Shown in pieces: positions 2,745 to 32,259 of a stretch of DNA of 42,379 nt (positions are counted from its first letter, which is position 1; every line of letters begins with the position of its first letter). The notes beneath the pieces were generated by a model. That model saw only the letters and a list, made by a program, of their open reading frames with translations, searched no databases and had not been told where the DNA came from. Source of the DNA: a virus. Position numbers and translations under genes: made by a program. The DNA lies in the IMG/VR virus record IMGVR_UViG_3300050821_011366, positions 1-42,379 of that record; one strand, written 5' to 3'.

Positions 2745-3880
2745 TGGAAAATCGTCTGATTGAAGTAAAAGCGTTGCACGACGCATTCAAGGTTCTGGAT
2801 TTGGTTCCGTCGAAAGCGGGAATCCCGTCGTCTGATTTCATACAGCTTGATTTGCGCCATCCGGGCGTAGTTGTTTTCAGGTTAAACGCAGACATGCTGG
2901 GAATGGCCACAGCAAAAGCTTCTGGTGATTGGCAGCCAAAGAAGCTGTTTTACGTTGACCGTCGTCTGTTGTCCCCGTTTGTGTCGTCTTTGCCTGAGAA
3001 CGAGTTCAAGGACGATAACAGAAAAAAGAGTGACTTGTTTTGTATCTACGAGGATGAGAAAAAGTTGTGCATGACGTGGCGCAATCGTAAGTTGGAGTTA
3101 ACCCAGTCTCTGGAGCAGAAAGGGTACGGAGACTTTACCAAGCTGGAAACGTTGAAGAAGCTGCCGATGGACAAGATGTTAAGCGCCGCGTTAGCAGCCG
3201 CCGCGACGTGTGCGACAAACGATCCGTCTGTTCCGCATTTGAATTGCGTGTATCTGCACGATGGTCGTGTGTATGCGACTGATAACATCGCTTTGTTCAC
3301 AGCCAAGCATAATGGTCTGAAGGGTTTGCACATTCCGTTTCCAGCATCGATTGTAAGTACGCTAGCCAGCGATCTAGCGACGGCGGTCTACTATGGAAAA
3401 GACCGCGTAGTGGTGGCCTGTAAAAACGGTCGTCTGGAACAGACTGTCCAGATAAAGGCCAAAGAAGAGTTCCCATTCGATTCTGCCAACAAGCAGTTGG
3501 AGTGGGCCAAGAGGTTTAAGCATGTATTTACGTTCAAGCCCAAGGAGTTCGGTGAGGTCGCAAATCGCCTGGGTACCTATCTTTCCGGCGTGCGTAGGGA
3601 AGAATGGGTCTTGCAGATGCGGGGTGTGGAAAAAAGCGCCGTCGTCAAGTTCATTTGTAAAATAGAACATGGCCAGTTTCTCGAAGTACTGAAGTCAGCC
3701 GGAATGCTAGAGAGTGCCGCCATCTTGGAGTGGCCATTGGATAGACTGTTGTTGGCGTTTCAGTACTTCGGAAAGCTGGACACGGATTTGACTGTGCGTG
3801 TGGAGCTTCCAGGTAATCGTATGTACACAATTGAGTCCGGTGACCATCAGTTACTGGTCGCTGTGAAGGCAAAGAAATGA
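2744..3880 (+). CDS. Sliding clamp, DNA polymerase III beta-like
   Basis: A 378-aa protein whose length and layout fit a bacterial beta clamp (three similar domains). The clearest piece is the middle segment LNCVYLHDGRVYATDNIALF, matching the beta-clamp pattern of a hairpin followed by 'YATDG..LA'. The end (TIESGDHQLLVAVKAKK) matches the clamp C-terminus, where a short strand precedes the chain end. It would encircle DNA and hold the polymerase encoded two genes downstream; the DnaX-like loader at 12.1 kb would open it. The start overlaps the previous stop (TGATG). Similarity is spread thinly, so the call rests on fold pattern plus replisome context. Confidence 0.7.
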   Translation: MENRLIEVKALHDAFKVLDLVPSKAGIPSSDFIQLDLRHPGVVVFRLNADMLGMATAKASGDWQPKKLFYVDRRLLSPFVSSLPENEFKDDNRKKSDLFCIYEDEKKLCMTWRNRKLELTQSLEQKGYGDFTKLETLKKLPMDKMLSAALAAAATCATNDPSVPHLNCVYLHDGRVYATDNIALFTAKHNGLKGLHIPFPASIVSTLASDLATAVYYGKDRVVVACKNGRLEQTVQIKAKEEFPFDSANKQLEWAKRFKHVFTFKPKEFGEVANRLGTYLSGVRREEWVLQMRGVEKSAVVKFICKIEHGQFLEVLKSAGMLESAAILEWPLDRLLLAFQYFGKLDTDLTVRVELPGNRMYTIESGDHQLLVAVKAKK

Positions 3881-4317
3881 GTTCCAGAATCGGTTTTGTT
3901 ATTTCCCCAGAAGTATTCATGATGACGCAAAAGCCACCGGAGTATATACCCGTTAGCTACGGCCCGGTTCGGATGGTCGAGAAGGTTTGGGGCGTCGAGT
4001 ATTGGTTAGAAAACAACGACGAGTATTGCGGAAAGATTCTTGCCGTGAACGCTGGGTTCACCAGTTCCCTGCACTATCACAAAAAGAAAAACGAAACGTT
4101 CCTAGTTTTGAGTGGTTTGTGCCGTCTTGTTTTTGATGATGTAACTTTTGGTTTGAACGCTGGAGCGCGTATAACGATTCCAGCTGGAGTGCGGCATCGT
4201 TTCTACGTAAAGAAAAGTGATGCAAGAGGTTGCAAGATTCTGGAATTGTCCACGCATCACGATGACAAGGACGTTGTACGGTTGGAAGAAAGTAGAGCTT
4301 TGAATTATGGCGAATAG
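3877..4317 (+). CDS. Cupin-domain protein
   Basis: A 146-aa single-domain cupin. Motif 1 is complete: Gly, five residues, His-x-His, four residues, Glu, six residues, Gly (GFTSSLHYHKKKNETFLVLSG read without a break in the protein). Motif 2 follows (GARITIPAGVRHRF) with the third metal His. The WGVEYWLENN lead and ILELSTHHDDKDVVRLEE tail resemble the cupin half of mannose-6-phosphate isomerase/ManC-like proteins. A metal-bound small-molecule isomerase or binding role is likely; the substrate cannot be read. It starts by ATGA overlap with the clamp gene, though ATGATG at 3919 is an alternative start nearer the domain, and it overlaps the polymerase start by 11 bases. Confidence 0.75.
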   Translation: MSSRIGFVISPEVFMMTQKPPEYIPVSYGPVRMVEKVWGVEYWLENNDEYCGKILAVNAGFTSSLHYHKKKNETFLVLSGLCRLVFDDVTFGLNAGARITIPAGVRHRFYVKKSDARGCKILELSTHHDDKDVVRLEESRALNYGE

Positions 4318-7300
4318 TGGTACGTTGTTTGACATCGACCCAGACGACATAGCACCAGCTAAGTCCAACGTAGCCAAAAAGGCTTTGGTCAAGCGCGTCG
4401 CCAAAACACCTAAAGCCAGTGCGCAGCGCGGCTGCGCTTTCTGCCCAATGAACCAAGCTCCGGGTATCAGGAAGGTAAAGGGGCTGGTACGTCTAACGGG
4501 TCAGAAAATAATGATCTGGGGTATGAACCCGGGAGTGGAAGAGAACGAAAAAGGATTAGAGCTGATTGGTAAATCAGGACAATTTCTCTGGAAAGAGTTG
4601 GCCGCCGTTGGTATCACACGTCAGATGTGCGACGTCCAGAACGTAGTACGGTGTCGGACGCCAAAGCTGGTTACGGACGAGTACGGCGACGAGAGAATGG
4701 TCGACGGTGAGCCGCCGAAAGACGTATTGCATTGCTGTTCTATCTACACCGAAGAAGCGCTGAGAATAAATTCTGGGCGCGCAAAGGTTCATCTGGTGTT
4801 GGGCGCTGTTGCCGCGAAAGCATTTCTGGGCCGCGATTACAGAAAAACTGAAAAGGTTCGATGGATAGAGCGTCTAAATGCTTGGGTCATTTGCACGTTT
4901 CACCCAGCCTTTTTTCTGCGGGGTGGTACGCGCTCCAAGATGGGTGAGTTCCGAGCCGCGTTGCAGTCGGTAAAGGAAATATCCGAAGGCGCCGGTTCGC
5001 GGTTTTCCTACATCGAAAAGCAGGATTACAAAGAGGCCGAGCCAGCGGGTTTGAAGGAATTGTTTCTTGAGTTACTAAGAGTGGCAGACGCTGGGGTACG
5101 CATAGTTGTTGACGTTGAGCATGGCCATGATAAGACTGGAAAGCCGGTAATGGTCTGCGTCGGGTTTTGTTACAAGCCAGGTGTATCTCGTACGGTTTAC
5201 TATGACCACCCAGAAGCACCAGCAAAAAATAAGCCCATTGTGTTGAGGTTTTTCAAAGCGGTAATGGAAAATCCGAAGATACGAAAAGCGATGCACTACG
5301 GGTGCACAGACGCAAAAGAGTTCTGGCGGTTGCTGGGTATCAGGGTAAAAGGGTTCGACTACGATACGAACTACGCCGAGTATTTAGCCTACTCCAATCG
5401 CTGGGCCTATGGGCTAGCGGCTATTGCCGAGGCGCGGTTTCCGAACTTTGCTGGTTACAAGGCCATCGTTGAGCCGTTCTACACCGACCCAGAAAGAAAA
5501 TTGTGGAACCCGTACACCGTTCCCAAGAAGTCGTTGACTGTATACAACGGTGCTGACTGTGACCTAACGAAACGCATAGAATTGACCACTAAGAAAAAAG
5601 TAAATCCGTCGTTGCAAACCGTGTTTCTGCACGCAGGCGCTGTACTGGAAGAAATGCAGCCGCGTGGGCCTTTGTTCGACGCCAAGCACCATCAGTTCCT
5701 CGAGACTTGGATTCCAAAACGCTTGAACAAGATACACGCCAAGCTAGAGAAGTTGTCTGGTAATCCGAATTTCAACGTAAACTCGCCAAAGCAAGTAACA
5801 GAGTTCTTGTTTGCGCGATTGAAAGTACAAAAGCATCTGCCGCCGGAGTGGCATGAGAAAAACAAAAAGCTAAACACGAGAAAAGAAACGATGGAGATCC
5901 TCGAAAGCTTCCATCCTGCCCCGGGTCTAGTTGCAGAGGGTCGGCGGTTGGGTAAAAAAGAATCTACCTACATGACTGGGTTTCATCGTTCGGCTGAACT
6001 GTATGGTGGTCGGGTTAGAACGAAGTGGTGGTTGACTGGGACAGCGACGGGTAGGTTGTCTAGTGGCGGTTCGAAAAAAGGCGACGAGCACGAAACCGGT
6101 CTTGTAAACCTACAAAATATAGATGGTGACCCGGCCATTGAGTGCATGCTAGTTTCTGACCTACGATGGCGTGCTATTTACGCCATGTGGCTGGCTGGGC
6201 ATTCTTGCGAAGAGATACTTAAAAAGTTTGGCGACACCGATGTGTTCCTTGGGTTAGATCACTCTCAGTTGGAAATGAGAATTCTAGCCCAGATGTCTGG
6301 TGACCCGTTATTGATTCAAGCTTCGTTGTCACAATTCGATTTGCATTCCTCAGTCGGAAACTTGTTGACGGGTATTCCAGTAGAGAAGATAAAAAAGGAT
6401 CGAGAGATACGAACGGTAATCAAGGGGCTGCATTTCGGTATCGTTTACGGGTTGACACCAGACAATCTGTACTTACACATACTTGCTGAGGCAAAGAAAC
6501 TGGGAATCACGCCGCCAGATAGAAACAAAATCCTAGCGTGGTACAACAAATATTTCCAGCGATTCACGAAAGTGAAGCCGTTCATGGATAGTCAGATTGC
6601 CATGGCCGAGCAGCACGGTTACGTAGAATCACTGTTCGGTTTCAAGCGAGAAATATCGCCGTACGACAACGAGCGATCTTCTTTTTGGAAAAACCAATCA
6701 ATGAATTGTGTAGATTTTGAGACAGAGGCATTAACACAGCGTGGCTGGGTTTCCGGTTGGCAATTGAAATCCGGTGACGTTTTGCTGACTATGAATCAGA
6801 AGACCGGTAAGTTGGAGTGGCAGGCTGCTACGAAGGTGGTTCGTTATCCAAACTATGCCGGTCCTGTTTGCACATTGTCTTCTAAAAGTTTCAGTGCAGT
6901 TACTACACCGCATCATAGGTGGTTGGTTGAGGACCACGGCCGGTTCTACGAGCGTCAATCTAGTACGTTGCCGAGTGGATGGGGTAGTATACCGCGTGTG
7001 GGCCCGTATAATGGTCCAGCTGGTAAAAATTTGTCGGATGACTGGATTCGTTTAATTGGTTGGGTACTAACCGACGGTCATTACGGAAAAGGTCGAGGAT
7101 ACGCTAGTAATTCGGTAAAGGTTTGCCAAGTTAAAAAGAGAACAGTCGTTGTGATTGACGAATTGTTTGCGCGTTTAGCCATTCCTTATAGGACAAAAGC
7201 AAAGAAAGATAGAAAGCCGAACGAGGAAATTTTTTGGTCCTTTAGTGGCTTGAATGGGGGTTGGTTTAGAGCGACGTTCCCAAAAAGAATATTAACTCCT

Positions 7301-8089
7301 GAATTTGTAAGTCAGTTGTCTGGACATCAATGCCAAGTTCTGTACGAAACAATGCTGTTAGGCGACGGATATGTTGGGTCGGATAAGTCTGGGTTTTGCT
7401 GCAAGAGCAAAGAAGGTATAGACGCGTTTCAGATGCTGGCTTTGCTGTCCGGTAGCGCAACAACCGTTCGTTATAGAGACATGTCCAAGTATAAGCCGCG
7501 TTCGAAAAAGCTCGGAAACGTTCCAAAGATGACTGGTATTTGGACAAGTAATACCCTGCGTAGAGAGAAGGTAAGTTTGGGTTGGGTTAAGCGTAGGATT
7601 TGTAACGCTGCTGTTGGCATGTGGTGCCCAATGGTTCCAAACACTTTCTTTGTTGCTAGGCGAAAAGGTCACGTGTATGTAACGGGGAACACGCCAATTC
7701 AGGGTACAGCCCACCAGTTGATGGTCATAGCGTTGGCTGCCTTCCGGTTGAACCAGAAAAAGTTTGAGCACATTCGGCGGTTGAGTATGGAGGTACACGA
7801 CTCTTTGTACGCTTTCGTAAAGTTGAGCACGTTGAGAGAAGCGTACAAGCAAGGTGTGGAGTTGCTTACAACGGAAGCGTTGAAGCGGGTGAAGTTCTGG
7901 TTCCCGGAGATAAAGTGGCGCATCGGGTTGCAGGTTGAAGCGAAGGCCGGCTACAGGTTGGGCGTAATGCAAGACTACGTTGGTGAACCTGTAGCTGAAT
8001 TCTTGCAGAAGTGGTGTGAGAAGAACAAGAAGTTCCAAATTGAGTTGGCCGAGAAGGTCAAAAAAGACTTAGCGCCTGTTGCGGCGTAG
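4307..8089 (+). CDS. Family A DNA polymerase with N-terminal UDG-like domain, intein-interrupted
   Basis: Replicative polymerase, 1260 aa before and about 932 aa after splicing. Residues 40-225 are like family 4 uracil-DNA glycosylase: CAFC (43, 46), IWGMNPG at 70-76, VVRCRTP, HCC and FHPAFFLR with His199, so a four-Cys Fe-S site is plausible. Residues 265-440 are a DnaQ-like 3'-5' exonuclease with Asp269, Glu271, an Asp in YGCTDAKEF and YNGAD. The polymerase part has motif A (LDHSQLEMR, Asp651), motif B (RTVIKGLHFGIVYG, Phe at the dideoxy-discrimination site) and motif C (VHDSL, Asp1165). Motif C has Ser where PolA has Glu. SPO1-type phage polymerases share the UDG-like head. An intein occupies residues 801-1128, just before the PIQGTA segment. 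Confidence 0.93.
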   Translation: MANSGTLFDIDPDDIAPAKSNVAKKALVKRVAKTPKASAQRGCAFCPMNQAPGIRKVKGLVRLTGQKIMIWGMNPGVEENEKGLELIGKSGQFLWKELAAVGITRQMCDVQNVVRCRTPKLVTDEYGDERMVDGEPPKDVLHCCSIYTEEALRINSGRAKVHLVLGAVAAKAFLGRDYRKTEKVRWIERLNAWVICTFHPAFFLRGGTRSKMGEFRAALQSVKEISEGAGSRFSYIEKQDYKEAEPAGLKELFLELLRVADAGVRIVVDVEHGHDKTGKPVMVCVGFCYKPGVSRTVYYDHPEAPAKNKPIVLRFFKAVMENPKIRKAMHYGCTDAKEFWRLLGIRVKGFDYDTNYAEYLAYSNRWAYGLAAIAEARFPNFAGYKAIVEPFYTDPERKLWNPYTVPKKSLTVYNGADCDLTKRIELTTKKKVNPSLQTVFLHAGAVLEEMQPRGPLFDAKHHQFLETWIPKRLNKIHAKLEKLSGNPNFNVNSPKQVTEFLFARLKVQKHLPPEWHEKNKKLNTRKETMEILESFHPAPGLVAEGRRLGKKESTYMTGFHRSAELYGGRVRTKWWLTGTATGRLSSGGSKKGDEHETGLVNLQNIDGDPAIECMLVSDLRWRAIYAMWLAGHSCEEILKKFGDTDVFLGLDHSQLEMRILAQMSGDPLLIQASLSQFDLHSSVGNLLTGIPVEKIKKDREIRTVIKGLHFGIVYGLTPDNLYLHILAEAKKLGITPPDRNKILAWYNKYFQRFTKVKPFMDSQIAMAEQHGYVESLFGFKREISPYDNERSSFWKNQSMNCVDFETEALTQRGWVSGWQLKSGDVLLTMNQKTGKLEWQAATKVVRYPNYAGPVCTLSSKSFSAVTTPHHRWLVEDHGRFYERQSSTLPSGWGSIPRVGPYNGPAGKNLSDDWIRLIGWVLTDGHYGKGRGYASNSVKVCQVKKRTVVVIDELFARLAIPYRTKAKKDRKPNEEIFWSFSGLNGGWFRATFPKRILTPEFVSQLSGHQCQVLYETMLLGDGYVGSDKSGFCCKSKEGIDAFQMLALLSGSATTVRYRDMSKYKPRSKKLGNVPKMTGIWTSNTLRREKVSLGWVKRRICNAAVGMWCPMVPNTFFVARRKGHVYVTGNTPIQGTAHQLMVIALAAFRLNQKKFEHIRRLSMEVHDSLYAFVKLSTLREAYKQGVELLTTEALKRVKFWFPEIKWRIGLQVEAKAGYRLGVMQDYVGEPVAEFLQKWCEKNKKFQIELAEKVKKDLAPVAA
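6707..7690 (+). mobile_element. Intein with LAGLIDADG homing endonuclease inside the DNA polymerase
   Basis: A 328-aa in-frame insert begins at Cys801 (CVDFETEALTQRGW, block A) and ends VYVTGN before Thr1129. Block B is seen as SAVTTPHHRW (TxxH). Two LAGLIDADG helices are present, LIGWVLTDGH with Asp923 and LLGDGYVG with Asp1020, so the homing endonuclease looks intact. The exteins join as SMN plus TPIQGTAH, a highly conserved polymerase site near the active centre. The penultimate residue is Gly instead of the usual His, a known but uncommon variant. Splicing would be needed for an active polymerase. Confidence 0.92.
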
Positions 8090-26340: not shown

Positions 26341-26508
26341 ATGCGTCAGAAGATGACACCGAGGCAGAAAGCTGGTCAGAAGGGCGGGAAGGCCACCGCT
26401 CGTAAACATGATTCTGCCCACTACGAAAATATCGGGCGTCGTGGTGGACTGATGTGCCGTACGTTGTACAGTTCGGCATTTTATAGCAGTATCAGGAAAC
26501 CGAAATGA
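26341..26508 (+). CDS. KGG-motif small protein
   Basis: A 55-aa protein. GQKGGKATARKHDSAHYENI followed by GRRGG is the KGG repeat pattern of the small 'stress-induced KGG' proteins (Con-10/GsiB type), which are flexible and linked to desiccation or stress survival in bacteria and fungi. In a phage the role is unknown; DNA or virion packing is possible. It is coupled by ATGA to the next gene. Confidence 0.6.
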   Translation: MRQKMTPRQKAGQKGGKATARKHDSAHYENIGRRGGLMCRTLYSSAFYSSIRKPK

Positions 26509-27395
26509 AGGCCGCACTGAGAAGAATGAACTCGGTTTCCAACGCGCCACCAGCAAAATGTCCGACTGTCGTGGAAGAGGTTCCGTATACAGACGAGCGT
26601 TACGCTCGTTTGAAGCTGCTCGCAAGTACATACGATGAGCGGAATCTAATCGACAGAACCACTGTAGCGTACAAGTTCTGGCAAAAAACGGACTGGGATG
26701 CTTTGAAGGACGAGTTCTACGTTTCTGTGGACGCTCGTGGCGGGTACAAATACAGGTCAGTAGCAGAGTTCGCCGCAGAGAAGTTCAAAAAAGCGCATGA
26801 GCGTGAGTGGGTGCTTTTGGCTATTGGTCCGTATCCGTCAAAAAGAGTTCCGTGGAAAGGTAGCTGGACGCTGGAGCGCCACAACGAACATTGGCGCGCC
26901 GACAAACGCACAAATGTTCTAGCCAAAGCGTTAGAGAAGCAAGCAGACGCTGCAACGATTTCGTATTCGCTAGCGTCGTATTACATCGACGAGATGTCCA
27001 AGTTGAAAACGTGGCTTGACGAGTTGATGGAATATTCGGGCCACGAATTGTTCAAGCGAGTGAAGCCGGGTGCATCGAAAGGCGTCAGAGAAGAAGCCAA
27101 AAAAGAAATGCGCTTCATTCTGGCGGCGCAGCAGAAGTTGTTGAATTTGATGGACCAGGTACGCACTAGCGTACAGACTTCTGTGGGTGGCCCAAACGCA
27201 GTTGTCGCAACGCTAGCGGCTCAGGTGTTTAGAGATCAATTGAAGTCTCCGTTGAACGCTGGCAGACCGGATAATGTACGGCATCTAATCACCCAGATGA
27301 CCGAAGTTGCGATTGCTCGTTCGGAGTTGTATAAAACGTCATTGCCGAATCTAGAAGCAATAGACGTTGAGCCTGTGCATAAAAAGCCGATGTAG
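26505..27395 (+). CDS. Uncharacterised 296-aa helical protein, possible small-terminase-type role
   Basis: Start ATG 26505, coupled. The front has YTDERYARLKLLASTYDERN and KFWQKTDWDALKDEF, the middle WVLLAIGPYPSKRVPWKG, and the rest is long helices (KKEMRFILAAQQKLLNLMDQ, VATLAAQVFRDQL). I do not recognise a family. Its place at the border between accessory and structural genes, and its helical oligomer-like nature, would suit a small terminase or a scaffold-like protein, but no decisive motif is seen. Confidence 0.55.
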   Translation: MKAALRRMNSVSNAPPAKCPTVVEEVPYTDERYARLKLLASTYDERNLIDRTTVAYKFWQKTDWDALKDEFYVSVDARGGYKYRSVAEFAAEKFKKAHEREWVLLAIGPYPSKRVPWKGSWTLERHNEHWRADKRTNVLAKALEKQADAATISYSLASYYIDEMSKLKTWLDELMEYSGHELFKRVKPGASKGVREEAKKEMRFILAAQQKLLNLMDQVRTSVQTSVGGPNAVVATLAAQVFRDQLKSPLNAGRPDNVRHLITQMTEVAIARSELYKTSLPNLEAIDVEPVHKKPM

Positions 27396-27424: not shown

Positions 27425-27763
27425 ATGATGCAGACATCGTTTCCAATTTCGACCACGCAAGCGTTGACCGCGATTCAGTTTATTTTTAATTTGGGCATGG
27501 CGTATGCGATATATATCATGCAGAGAGACAAGACGGACAAGAAAAACGGTAACGGAAACGGAAAGAACCAGCTAGACAAGTTCCAGTCCATGTTGCAAGA
27601 AGCAAATATGAAAGCCGAACATGAAAATGCCATGAGAGCTGTAGCAGAGATGAACAGTAATGTACGGTCGTTAACGTCTACTGTGCAAGGAGTTGATCGG
27701 AGAATGGACGACCTTACAGACCGTGTTTTGCTGCTAGAAAGAGACCGCCGGCCAAGAGGGTAA
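27425..27763 (+). CDS. Membrane-anchored coiled-coil protein
   Basis: A 112-aa protein. Residues 5-32 include one transmembrane helix (ALTAIQFIFNLGMAYAIYIM), then a charged NGNGNGK linker, then a coiled coil (LQEANMKAEHENAMRAVAEM, VQGVDRRMDDLTDRVLLLER). Start ATG 27425 is preferred to TTG 27404. This shape is seen in small phage membrane proteins, including holin- or spanin-like ones, but no lysis motif is present. Confidence 0.6.
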   Translation: MMQTSFPISTTQALTAIQFIFNLGMAYAIYIMQRDKTDKKNGNGNGKNQLDKFQSMLQEANMKAEHENAMRAVAEMNSNVRSLTSTVQGVDRRMDDLTDRVLLLERDRRPRG

Positions 27764-27786
27764 AATCTACTGTAGGATTGAGACGA

Positions 27787-28173
27787 ATGAATTATTTATT
27801 GACTGTAAGCGACCTCTTGATTTGGTTTTCGTACTTTGTAGCCCCCTTGTTGTTGTTTCATGTGTGGTATAGAAAAGGGCATGTGCGGCCGTGCTGGGCT
27901 ACAAAGAAAATGCTCATTTGGTTTTCTGTGTTCGCCACCTGCTGTGGTTTGGTGCATTTGTTCGAATTGTTTACCATAGGGTCATGGACTTGGGAGTTGA
28001 CCTTGCTCAAAGCAGTGGCTGCTGTAGCGAGTATAGGTTTAGTTTTGGAACTGGGAAAAAACGTAGCCGCGTTGGCCACTACTCCCACGAAAATGGAAAA
28101 GGTATTGGCTGAGCAGGTGCAGTTGCGGGGCACGATCGCTGTCATGAATCGTAAGATGGGGGTTCAGATTTGA
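27787..28173 (+). CDS. Ethylene-receptor-type sensor domain, stand-alone membrane protein
   Basis: A 128-aa protein with three transmembrane helices. Helix 1, VSDLLIWFSYFVAPLLLF, holds Asp9, Tyr16 and Pro20 with the spacing of Asp25, Tyr32 and Pro36 of plant ETR1. Helix 2 holds CCGLVHLFEL, Cys53 and His57 matching the copper ligands Cys65 and His69. Helix 3, LTLLKAVAAVASIGLVLEL, matches the bacterial pattern with the Lys corresponding to ETR1 Lys91. No GAF or kinase part follows, only a short helical tail. Bacterial proteins with this domain are usually kinase or cyclase sensors. A gas- or copper-linked decoy or sensor is possible. The domain call is strong; ethylene binding is inference. Confidence 0.78.
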   Translation: MNYLLTVSDLLIWFSYFVAPLLLFHVWYRKGHVRPCWATKKMLIWFSVFATCCGLVHLFELFTIGSWTWELTLLKAVAAVASIGLVLELGKNVAALATTPTKMEKVLAEQVQLRGTIAVMNRKMGVQI

Positions 28174-28343
28174 AATTGTGCAACAGCATTGCATTGATGC
28201 AGATTGCCTGCATGTTGGGTAGTGCCGTGTTCGTTGCGCTGTATGTTTGCTATCGTGTCAAGAAAGACAAGTTGGTGAAAGAAGAAAAAGAAGGTCCGAG
28301 CAGCAAGGTCATAGTTTTCACGAAGAAGCAGGAGGGTGTATGA
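28170..28343 (+). CDS. Small single-pass membrane protein
   Basis: A 57-aa protein beginning at TTG 28170, overlapping the TGA of the ethylene-receptor-like gene. It has one hydrophobic helix (IACMLGSAVFVALYVCY) followed by a basic/acidic tail (RVKKDKLVKEEKEGPSSK). It is coupled on both sides by overlaps. It may be an assembly partner of the neighbouring membrane proteins. Confidence 0.55.
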   Translation: MKLCNSIALMQIACMLGSAVFVALYVCYRVKKDKLVKEEKEGPSSKVIVFTKKQEGV

Positions 28344-28594
28344 GCACCGGAGGAAAGCCAGGAGCTGCTTACAGGTTTCGCGTAGTGGGAAAAAACGTGT
28401 CCATTGCCGACCCAGAGAAAATCGTCGTGTCGTGGGCCACTGTGGATTCTGTTGACAACAAGTATGCAGCAACGGGAACGATTACCGTTCCAAAGGAAGA
28501 GGCGTCGTATTATGAATTCGGAATTGATTACGTGGACACGATTTTGCCTGACGTTGGCGGCAGGTCTATGGGCGGGTCAAAGCGTAAAAGCTAA
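28340..28594 (+). CDS. Small soluble beta-rich protein
   Basis: An 84-aa protein: AAYRFRVVGKNVSIADPEKI, VVSWATVDSVDNKYAATGTI, then a short acidic and Gly/Ser end. It overlaps the next gene by 83 bases. No signal peptide or membrane helix. The pattern is that of a small Ig-like beta-sandwich; no family is named. Confidence 0.55.
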   Translation: MSTGGKPGAAYRFRVVGKNVSIADPEKIVVSWATVDSVDNKYAATGTITVPKEEASYYEFGIDYVDTILPDVGGRSMGGSKRKS

Positions 28595-29120
28595 AGCGTT
28601 GCAGCTGTATTTTGACACGTTCGTTGTGGCGACTGCGGTAATAGAGTCGTCGAGATTGTTGGTAGATCGAGAGTCAGACGTGTACAGAATCGTCTACAGC
28701 GCAGGAACGATAGCTATTCTGGTAGCGTCGTTTTTCGTGGGCTGGAAAGAAAAGCCCAAAGCGTTGTCGGTGTTGGCATCGATGGCGCCTAGTTTGTTGT
28801 TTGGGTGGTTGGCGTACAAAGAAATGGTCGTAGAGAAAGACACAATCATTTGTCTGGTAGAGGGTATGCTGCTCACGTTCGTGGGTCTGCTGTTGTTGAC
28901 TCGCGTACCGTTTTCCAAGGACCGACTAGTGTACGGAACGCTAGCTGTATTCTGGTTGGTGCTGGCATTTTTCGACTACGTGTTCGTAGTCAATTTCTCT
29001 GACTGGTGGTTGTTGACTAGCGACTGGGTTCCGACGTTGTGTGGTCTAGCGGCGTTCGGTTGGATAATCCGAAATCGTTACAAGCGTCAAGACAATTTTG
29101 CTGCGGCAGACAGCTGGTAA
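28512..29120 (+). CDS. Polytopic membrane protein of unknown function
   Basis: A 202-aa protein; start ATG 28512 after AAGGAAGAGG. It has about six hydrophobic helices (FCLTLAAGLWAGQ, IVYSAGTIAILVASFFVGW, MAPSLLFGWLAY, MLLTFVGLLLLT, LAVFWLVLAFFDYVFVV, LCGLAAFGWII). Loops are short. It starts inside the preceding gene. It may be a holin or antiholin-like protein, or part of the sensor-like cluster. No family is recognised. Confidence 0.6.
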   Translation: MNSELITWTRFCLTLAAGLWAGQSVKAKALQLYFDTFVVATAVIESSRLLVDRESDVYRIVYSAGTIAILVASFFVGWKEKPKALSVLASMAPSLLFGWLAYKEMVVEKDTIICLVEGMLLTFVGLLLLTRVPFSKDRLVYGTLAVFWLVLAFFDYVFVVNFSDWWLLTSDWVPTLCGLAAFGWIIRNRYKRQDNFAAADSW

Positions 29121-31271: not shown

Positions 31272-31832
31272 ATGGACAAGAATAAAGTTTTGAAGCTCAC
31301 GTTGCGCGATGAGTTGTTGGGCCAGCCGCTAAGCAAGCGTGAGCAGGTTGTCGCGGCAGAAATGATGTCTAATCTGTCGTGGAAAGAAATAGCTGCAAAG
31401 CTCAACGTCAGTCCATCTGCGGTCAAGCATCATGCTGGTGCTATCTATTCGAAACTAGGTGTTTACGATAGACTACACGCGCAGGAACTTATTAGGCGCT
31501 CTGAGATGGGTGTTGCTTACGTTACAGATCAAGAAGCAATGAATGATTGGAGCAGATTGACGCCTTTGCAAAGGAACGTTGCCAGGTTGTTCGCACCGAC
31601 AGGGAGTTGGGCTACGGTGTTACACAAAATACGAATGAGCGAATCGTCTTTGAGGCAGACTTTGTATATCATCTATCAGATTCTTCGGGTGGGAAATAAG
31701 TACAGGCTGGCCGAATTTGTTTTGAAGCGCAAGTTGCATGAACAGCCATTGGAGTTGGATGGACTAGAGATAAAGGTTTTCCGGGCCAGAAAAAACGTCA
31801 TCGAACTCAAAACTTCTGCCAGGAGAGGATGA
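31272..31832 (+). CDS. LuxR/GerE-type helix-turn-helix protein with two HTH segments
   Basis: A 186-aa protein. Residues 20-70 are a typical LuxR HTH: LSKREQVVAAEMMSNLSWKE, IAAKLNVSPSAVKHHAGAIY, SKLGV. Residues 95-150 show a second, weaker copy (LTPLQRNVARLFAPTGSW, IYQILRVGNKYRLAEFV). There is no receiver or ligand domain, so it probably binds DNA by itself. It sits among exported structural genes, which suggests it controls this region or host genes. Direct evidence for targets is absent. Confidence 0.75.
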   Translation: MDKNKVLKLTLRDELLGQPLSKREQVVAAEMMSNLSWKEIAAKLNVSPSAVKHHAGAIYSKLGVYDRLHAQELIRRSEMGVAYVTDQEAMNDWSRLTPLQRNVARLFAPTGSWATVLHKIRMSESSLRQTLYIIYQILRVGNKYRLAEFVLKRKLHEQPLELDGLEIKVFRARKNVIELKTSARRG

Positions 31833-31833
31833 A

Positions 31834-32259
31834 ATGATTAGCAAGAATCGTAGCGCGTTGTTGTTGATGGTGGCTCTGGTCTTGAGTGTGTGCTCCTATG
31901 CGCAAGCAAAGTTGAGCGTACATTGGTCAGAGTCTGTTGTTGACTTTGGTGCGGTGCATTTGAATGGTTCTGCATCGCATAAAGTCGCAGTCAAAAACAA
32001 CGGCACAAGTCCGGTGGTTCTTACGTCTGCCGGATTTGTAAGGACGCTGAGTAAGGACTCGTCTATTGTGACTGAGTTTGGCGCTGTGGCGCCGGCAAAA
32101 GAAAAAGTATTGTGGCCGGGAGAGACCGCGGAGTTCATACTTATGTTTTTCCCGAAGGTCGTGGGGGCCAGAGAAGCAAAGTTGCTTATCGAGTTTGGTG
32201 TGGAGAAAGACAGAAAGATAGTGCAAGCTATTACCTGCCGTGGCGAGGGCGTGAATTGA
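31834..32259 (+). CDS. Exported ASH/Ig-like domain protein
   Basis: A 141-aa protein with a signal peptide (LLLMVALVLSVCSYAQA) and one ASPM-SPD-2-Hydin/choice-of-anchor-D type domain: VVDFGAVHLNGSASHKVAVK, NNGTSPVVLTSAGF, WPGETAEFILMFFPK. Such domains abound in Acidobacteriota surface proteins. It is coupled to the next gene's region. Confidence 0.68.
   Translation: MISKNRSALLLMVALVLSVCSYAQAKLSVHWSESVVDFGAVHLNGSASHKVAVKNNGTSPVVLTSAGFVRTLSKDSSIVTEFGAVAPAKEKVLWPGETAEFILMFFPKVVGAREAKLLIEFGVEKDRKIVQAITCRGEGVN

Follow-up and report, generated by a model that had tools for sequence, protein, structure and literature searches.

A stand-alone ETR1_N sensor-domain gene in a probable tailed-phage type genome fragment, with metal-site residues retained and two ethylene-pocket isoleucines replaced

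The virus record IMGVR_UViG_3300050821_011366 of IMG/VR, whose whole 42,379-nucleotide stretch is called the window here, encodes a 128-aa protein that is an ETR1_N domain standing alone. The metal-site residues of the family are retained, two isoleucines of the ethylene pocket are lost, and no output domain follows. In plants, cyanobacteria and other bacteria, ETR1_N is known to serve kinases as their input domain. The family itself is known, but its use as a single phage gene appears to be undescribed. No phage-encoded ethylene-receptor domain was found in the literature searched, which covers few of the subscription journals, and the paper on the phages Molly and Colly does not mention ethylene. 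The original prediction held that no described phage example was known. This stands for the literature searched, but other phages also encode ETR1_N.

The reading frame begins with an ATG at 27787 and ends with a stop codon at 28171–28173, giving the 128-aa product and the coordinates originally proposed. A search of Pfam-A gave ETR1_N (PF25487) as the single significant family, with 55.6 bits (E 6.5e-15; curated cut-off 27 bits) over residues 4–93 of the protein and positions 5–91 of the 97 in the profile. We also built an independent profile from 58 other ETR1_N domains, leaving the 128-aa protein out. The protein reached 43.4 bits against this profile; the best of 4000 shuffled sequences reached 11.5 bits (in 2000 of them residues were exchanged only within helices and loops, so that each helix retained its composition). 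The scores therefore reflect homology and not a chance order of residues, and the membership in ETR1_N that had been proposed is near certain. A fold search of the PDB gave no significant match, and neither it nor a sequence search turned up a solved ETR1_N structure. No close relatives were detected in the viral contigs, the phage collection (tblastn) or the PHROGs. The PHROG search gave nothing up to E 1, and Pfam matched no holin.

The AF2 model, calculated from an alignment of 59 rows, has a mean pLDDT of 88.4 and predicts four helices, comprising residues 2–29, 40–62, 69–98 and 102–124. The sequence has three hydrophobic stretches, and the three helices of ETR1_N are present in the same order as in the PF25487 receptors (plant ETR1, SynEtr1 and AzoEtr1). 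Common to these receptors and the window protein are Asp, Tyr and Pro in helix 1, Phe, Cys, Gly and His in helix 2, and Lys and Ser in helix 3. The window protein differs from them in having neither a kinase nor a GAF or PAS domain, in a shorter N-terminus that does not carry the CxxW motif, in a loop between helices 1 and 2 that is four residues longer, and in Ala in place of Ile35 and Ile62. ETR1_N alone was matched and the stop comes after residue 128; the stand-alone form is thus as predicted, with only a 23-residue helix after the sensor domain. The features of the gene and its surroundings are collected in Table 1.

Table 1. Coordinates in the window of the ETR1_N gene, its pocket codons and the neighboring genes.
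Feature	Position	Strand	Basis
Protein of 112 aa, one TM followed by a helical/coiled-coil-like stretch	27425..27763	+	Upstream neighbor
AGGA, likely ribosome-binding site, 9 nt 5' of the ATG	27774..27777	+	Sequence
Stand-alone ETR1_N protein gene, 128 aa	27787..28173	+	Pfam PF25487, AF2 helices
Asp9 codon (ETR1 Asp25)	27811..27813	+	Alignments
Tyr16 codon (ETR1 Tyr32)	27832..27834	+	Alignments
Ala19 codon, place of ETR1 Ile35; Ile in 57/58 relatives	27841..27843	+	Alignments
Pro20 codon (ETR1 Pro36)	27844..27846	+	Alignments
Ala50 codon, place of ETR1 Ile62; Ile in 58/58 relatives	27934..27936	+	Alignments
Cys53 codon (ETR1 Cys65, Cu ligand)	27943..27945	+	Alignments
His57 codon (ETR1 His69, Cu ligand)	27955..27957	+	Alignments
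Lys75 codon (ETR1 Lys91)	28009..28011	+	Alignments
C-terminal helix, residues 102–124, sole sequence beyond the sensor domain	28090..28158	+	AF2 model
One-TM protein of 57 aa, TTG start, 4-nt overlap with the ETR1_N stop	28170..28343	+	Sequence
Small protein of 84 aa, no TM, 4-nt overlap with the 57-aa gene	28340..28594	+	Sequence
Multi-TM protein of 202 aa (about six TM)	28512..29120	+	G003 homologue

The residues were assigned by alignment to ETR1. The numbering of the ETR1 reference sequence agrees with that of the papers cited here. The Cu site of ETR1 is made of Asp25, Cys65 and His69 (PMC12643061), and in a model it is located at the dimer interface of TM1 and TM2 (PMC6586836). Residues I35, P36, I62, C65 and H69 are essential for ethylene binding (PMC6586836). 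The mutants Y32A, F61A, C65Y and H69A lost ethylene binding, and in I62A it was diminished (PMC8879215). The order of Asp9, Tyr16, Pro20, Cys53, His57 and a helix-3 lysine on which the domain had first been recognized is in place throughout, the lysine being Lys75, the first residue of KAVAAVASI. Beyond these, Ile28, Phe58, Phe61, Gly66 and Ser98 of ETR1 correspond to I12, F46, F49, G54 and S82 in the window protein. The register of the helices, judged by the AF2 helix bounds alone, is compatible with a position of Cys and His near Asp and Tyr. The places of Ile35 and Ile62 are both taken by Ala, which had gone unmentioned in the original prediction, and Ala78 stands for Thr94 of ETR1, a place where 57 of the 58 relatives have Thr. 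The search pattern itself required D, I28, Y, P, C, G and H in most of these relatives, so that their invariance is no evidence; the other places were free. As far as the residues tell, the metal site of the window copy looks kept, but the ethylene pocket looks lost and ethylene binding is probably gone. With two residues that are essential in ETR1 replaced, ethylene sensing is doubtful, and the gas sensor that was among the roles first suggested is unlikely for this copy.

Domain searches identified a phage replication module in the window. Its genes include a DNA polymerase A with a UDG domain, a UvsX-like recombinase, a clamp loader, an SbcC/SbcD-like protein, an ssDNA-binding protein and a GTP cyclohydrolase, and we infer a fragment of the tailed-phage type. 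The ETR1_N gene itself is in a group of small and membrane genes. No family in the Pfam and PHROG searches named any of the neighbors on either side; the 112-aa protein upstream has weak matches to phrog_736 (1.2e-3) and phrog_1625 (4.1e-3, bacteriocin production/immunity). Three membrane or small genes had been described as coupled around the ETR1_N gene, and on the downstream side this is borne out by successive overlaps of 4, 4 and 83 nt, the last between the 202-aa multi-TM gene and the gene preceding it. The 202-aa protein has a homologue in phage contig G003, a multi-TM gene that is likewise downstream of ETR1_N (L031:14754-15518; BLASTP E 1e-10, 27% identity). The structure model of the 202-aa protein (pLDDT 47) was unusable. 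Promoter and terminator scans gave chance level only, and no endolysin was recognized among the window ORFs scanned.

The search for phage homologues that had been suggested found ETR1_N in phage contigs G001–G004, in the Maribacter phages Molly and Colly, and in jumbo contigs including G005 and G007. The viral contigs came from a DNA search for conserved codons at set spacings; all scored above the Pfam cut-off, and phage assignment was by gene content. Degenerate-peptide searches with mixed alignments gave nothing that could be confirmed, and the two matches to a DNA pattern set to the loop length of the window protein were both spurious.

G001 (jumbo), G002, G003 and G004 carry ETR1_N as a stand-alone gene, as the window does. 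Their proteins score 104–121 bits in Pfam, much nearer to the bacterial versions than the window copy, and differ from it in retaining the PHGxC N-terminal segment and all listed pocket residues. G001 measures 350 kb and encodes an RNA ligase/tail-fibre-attachment protein; 22 of its tRNAs lie within 20 kb, and the ETR1_N gene adjoins the tRNA array and not a lysin. Portal and primase genes mark G002 as a phage, and portal, protease and major head protein genes mark G004. In G003 the ETR1_N gene is near tail-type genes. Complete kinases with an ETR1_N input are encoded in three contigs of jumbo-phage size: G005 (L010:2860-3975, HWE), G006 (L017:946-2079, HisKA and HATPase) and G007 (L168:9937-11070, HisKA and HATPase). 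A terminase and a head protease are also encoded in G007, and the phage nature of G005 rests on fewer genes, an RNase H and a DNA transfer protein. The kinase genes in G005 and G007 indicate that phages use the ETR1_N input for signaling.

Searching the phage collection with a bacterial ETR1_N sequence gave weak matches (E 0.6) in the cultured Maribacter phages Colly_1 and Molly. The protein, gp63 (QQO97348.1, annotated as hypothetical), matches PF25487 at 3e-16. It is likely the top viral match of the fold search, A0A8E4UZR7, on the sole ground that both are 289 aa long. Like the window protein, gp63 is a phage ETR1_N protein with no kinase; in Colly_1 its gene has tail genes on one side and an amidase directly after it. 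Unlike the window protein, it has Asn for Asp25, Ser for Pro36 and Asp for Lys91 and has not lost the isoleucines; the metal site is therefore no fixed requirement in phages. A further difference is an additional C-terminal domain of approximately 155 aa in Colly_1 gp63 (L007:2893-3762; residues ~135–289) with no Pfam match. Between Colly and Molly, dN of gp63 is 0.006 and dS is 0.19, which indicates strong purifying selection and a protein that is kept.

The window and G003 have 13 proteins in common, in nearly the same order and 21–44% identical, with about 35–44% identity for the replication genes; G+C is 0.49 in both. In both, the ETR1_N gene is located between homologues of the window genes 26505-27395 and 28512-29120, and it is thus co-located with the membrane-gene group in two related phages. 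We read the two copies as one inherited gene, although the 23% identity between the proteins leaves replacement possible. Two further relatives by PolA, G008 and G009, gave no ETR1_N match, but as their contigs likely end before the expected place of the gene, they are uninformative. Among otherwise unrelated phages, either ETR1_N was the sole common protein detected or its match far exceeded any other, G001 and Colly being compared by regions of 20–30 kb only. The identities are 67% for G002/G003, 44% for G003/G004, 40% for G003/G001 and about 27% to Colly. This sharing points to transfer. The proteins of G001–G004 form one group in the tree (SH-aLRT 82), and together these two results suggest that phages pass ETR1_N on. 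The window and Maribacter proteins are on very long branches (4.63 for the window end branch) and have no certain place in the tree. Phages appear to have taken up the sensor repeatedly.

Ethylene binding has been demonstrated for the bacterial AzoEtr1 (PMC11819568). Bacterial ETR1_N histidine kinases (SynEtr1, AzoEtr1, L034–L148) have the same input domain as the window protein, with a kinase following in nearly all. Among approximately 114 pattern-found genomic copies, nearly all run into long C-terminal parts, in agreement with the premise that the domain normally feeds a kinase in bacteria. Three copies are short (L077, L074 and L059). The Polaromonas copy L077 was rejected as stand-alone, as a kinase ORF follows after the stop. 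L074:1496-2131, on a Planctomycetota chromosome, encodes a 211-aa ETR1_N protein with a helical tail; it looks truly stand-alone and is a rare case outside phages. In the small, pattern-selected sets at hand, the stand-alone form is common in the small number of phages and rare in bacteria. On the Acaryochloris plasmid pMB01 (L002, 2456-4938), an ETR1_N kinase is spread over three adjacent annotated ORFs, apparently through decay or frameshift of the sensor kinase.

Our leading interpretation, which we hold tentatively and at somewhat less than even confidence, is that the window protein is an output-less membrane sensor subunit whose partners are either kinases of the ETR1_N type in the host or membrane proteins encoded alongside it. 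The domain would stem from a bacterial kinase of the ethylene-receptor type, of which the input end would have been retained and the kinase and receiver left behind. During infection the protein would sit in the host inner membrane, where it may retain an Asp/Cys/His site of the Cu(I) type together with the helix-3 Lys, and it would act through contact and not catalysis. ETR1_N domains form homodimers, and in the same way the protein may pair with sensor kinases of this type in the host; the alternative partner would be the multi-TM protein whose gene lies just downstream. Pairing could then alter the signaling state of the host membrane. For membrane insertion, dimerization, metal binding, the partner and the effect on the host, we argue from the family. 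An ETR1_N protein was found in only 9 of 148 Bacteroidota genomes; a host may thus lack any such kinase to pair with.

A role in lysis or as a membrane accessory would suit the position among small membrane genes equally well. In a lysis module, the ETR1_N fold would have been recruited as a mere three-helix membrane unit, such as a holin-like, antiholin or lysis-timing protein. A small three-TM protein beside one-TM coiled-coil-like genes, one of them with the weak PHROG matches given above, would suit this role, as would the amidase directly after the Colly_1 homologue and the tail-type genes near the G003 copy. However, no endolysin was recognized in the window ORFs scanned, the G001 copy adjoins tRNAs, and nothing would lead a holin to conserve the Lys and the residues of the metal site, as G001–G004 and the window do. 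We regard a lysis role as unlikely, though it is the most serious of the alternatives. Less probable again is a moron, for example a superinfection-exclusion or entry-blocking factor whose fold binds another membrane protein. The passage between unrelated phages as a single gene and the group of small membrane genes would agree with it, but the same place in two relatives as long diverged as the window phage and G003 is more like that of a core gene, and the PHROG search matched no exclusion family.

A working copper-bearing receptor for ethylene or another alkene gas, reporting to a partner, is very improbable for the window copy. Asp9, Tyr16, Pro20, Phe49, Cys53, His57 and Lys75 are present and G001–G004 keep every listed pocket residue, but the two places that are Ile in nearly all relatives, and whose Ile is listed as essential for ethylene binding in ETR1, are Ala here. 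We give negligible weight to the possibility that the protein is an unrelated three-helix membrane protein whose few matches arose by chance: its overall identity to bacterial ETR1_N domains is low, only 18–35%, but the Pfam and shuffle scores and the same genome place as the unquestionable ETR1_N gene of G003 contradict it.

The occurrence of ETR1_N in several types of phage, stand-alone and, in jumbo phages, also as full kinases, points to interference with host sensing of this type. A wider proposal would be that many kinds of phage captured the domain repeatedly, both as kinases and as output-less single genes, the latter supplying decoys or subunits in the membrane that, paired with ETR1_N-type kinases of the host, would change its signaling in the course of infection; we hold this to be rather doubtful, more so than the sensor-subunit interpretation of the window protein. 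Molly and Colly with Maribacter forsetii offer a cultured system for testing the question, and the phage copies provide naturally occurring versions of the domain in which pocket residues have changed.

Several other genes of the window were noted. The UDG/DNA polymerase A protein (4307-8089) contains an intein-like insertion at 6707-7690 (residues ~801–1128), which begins with CVDFETEALTQRGW, ends with VYVTGN ahead of TPIQG and is missing in the G003 homologue; no intein family matched it at E 0.01. A queuine tRNA-ribosyltransferase-like gene and the GTP cyclohydrolase gene (208-2446) suggest 7-deazaguanine modification of DNA or tRNA. A cysteine-dioxygenase-like phage gene is located at 3877-4317 (phrog_7851, E 1.6e-21). 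At 31272-31832 there is a LuxR-type HTH protein (GerE 8.5e-12), and directly after it, at 31834-32259, a secreted HYDIN/ASH-like Ig-domain protein.
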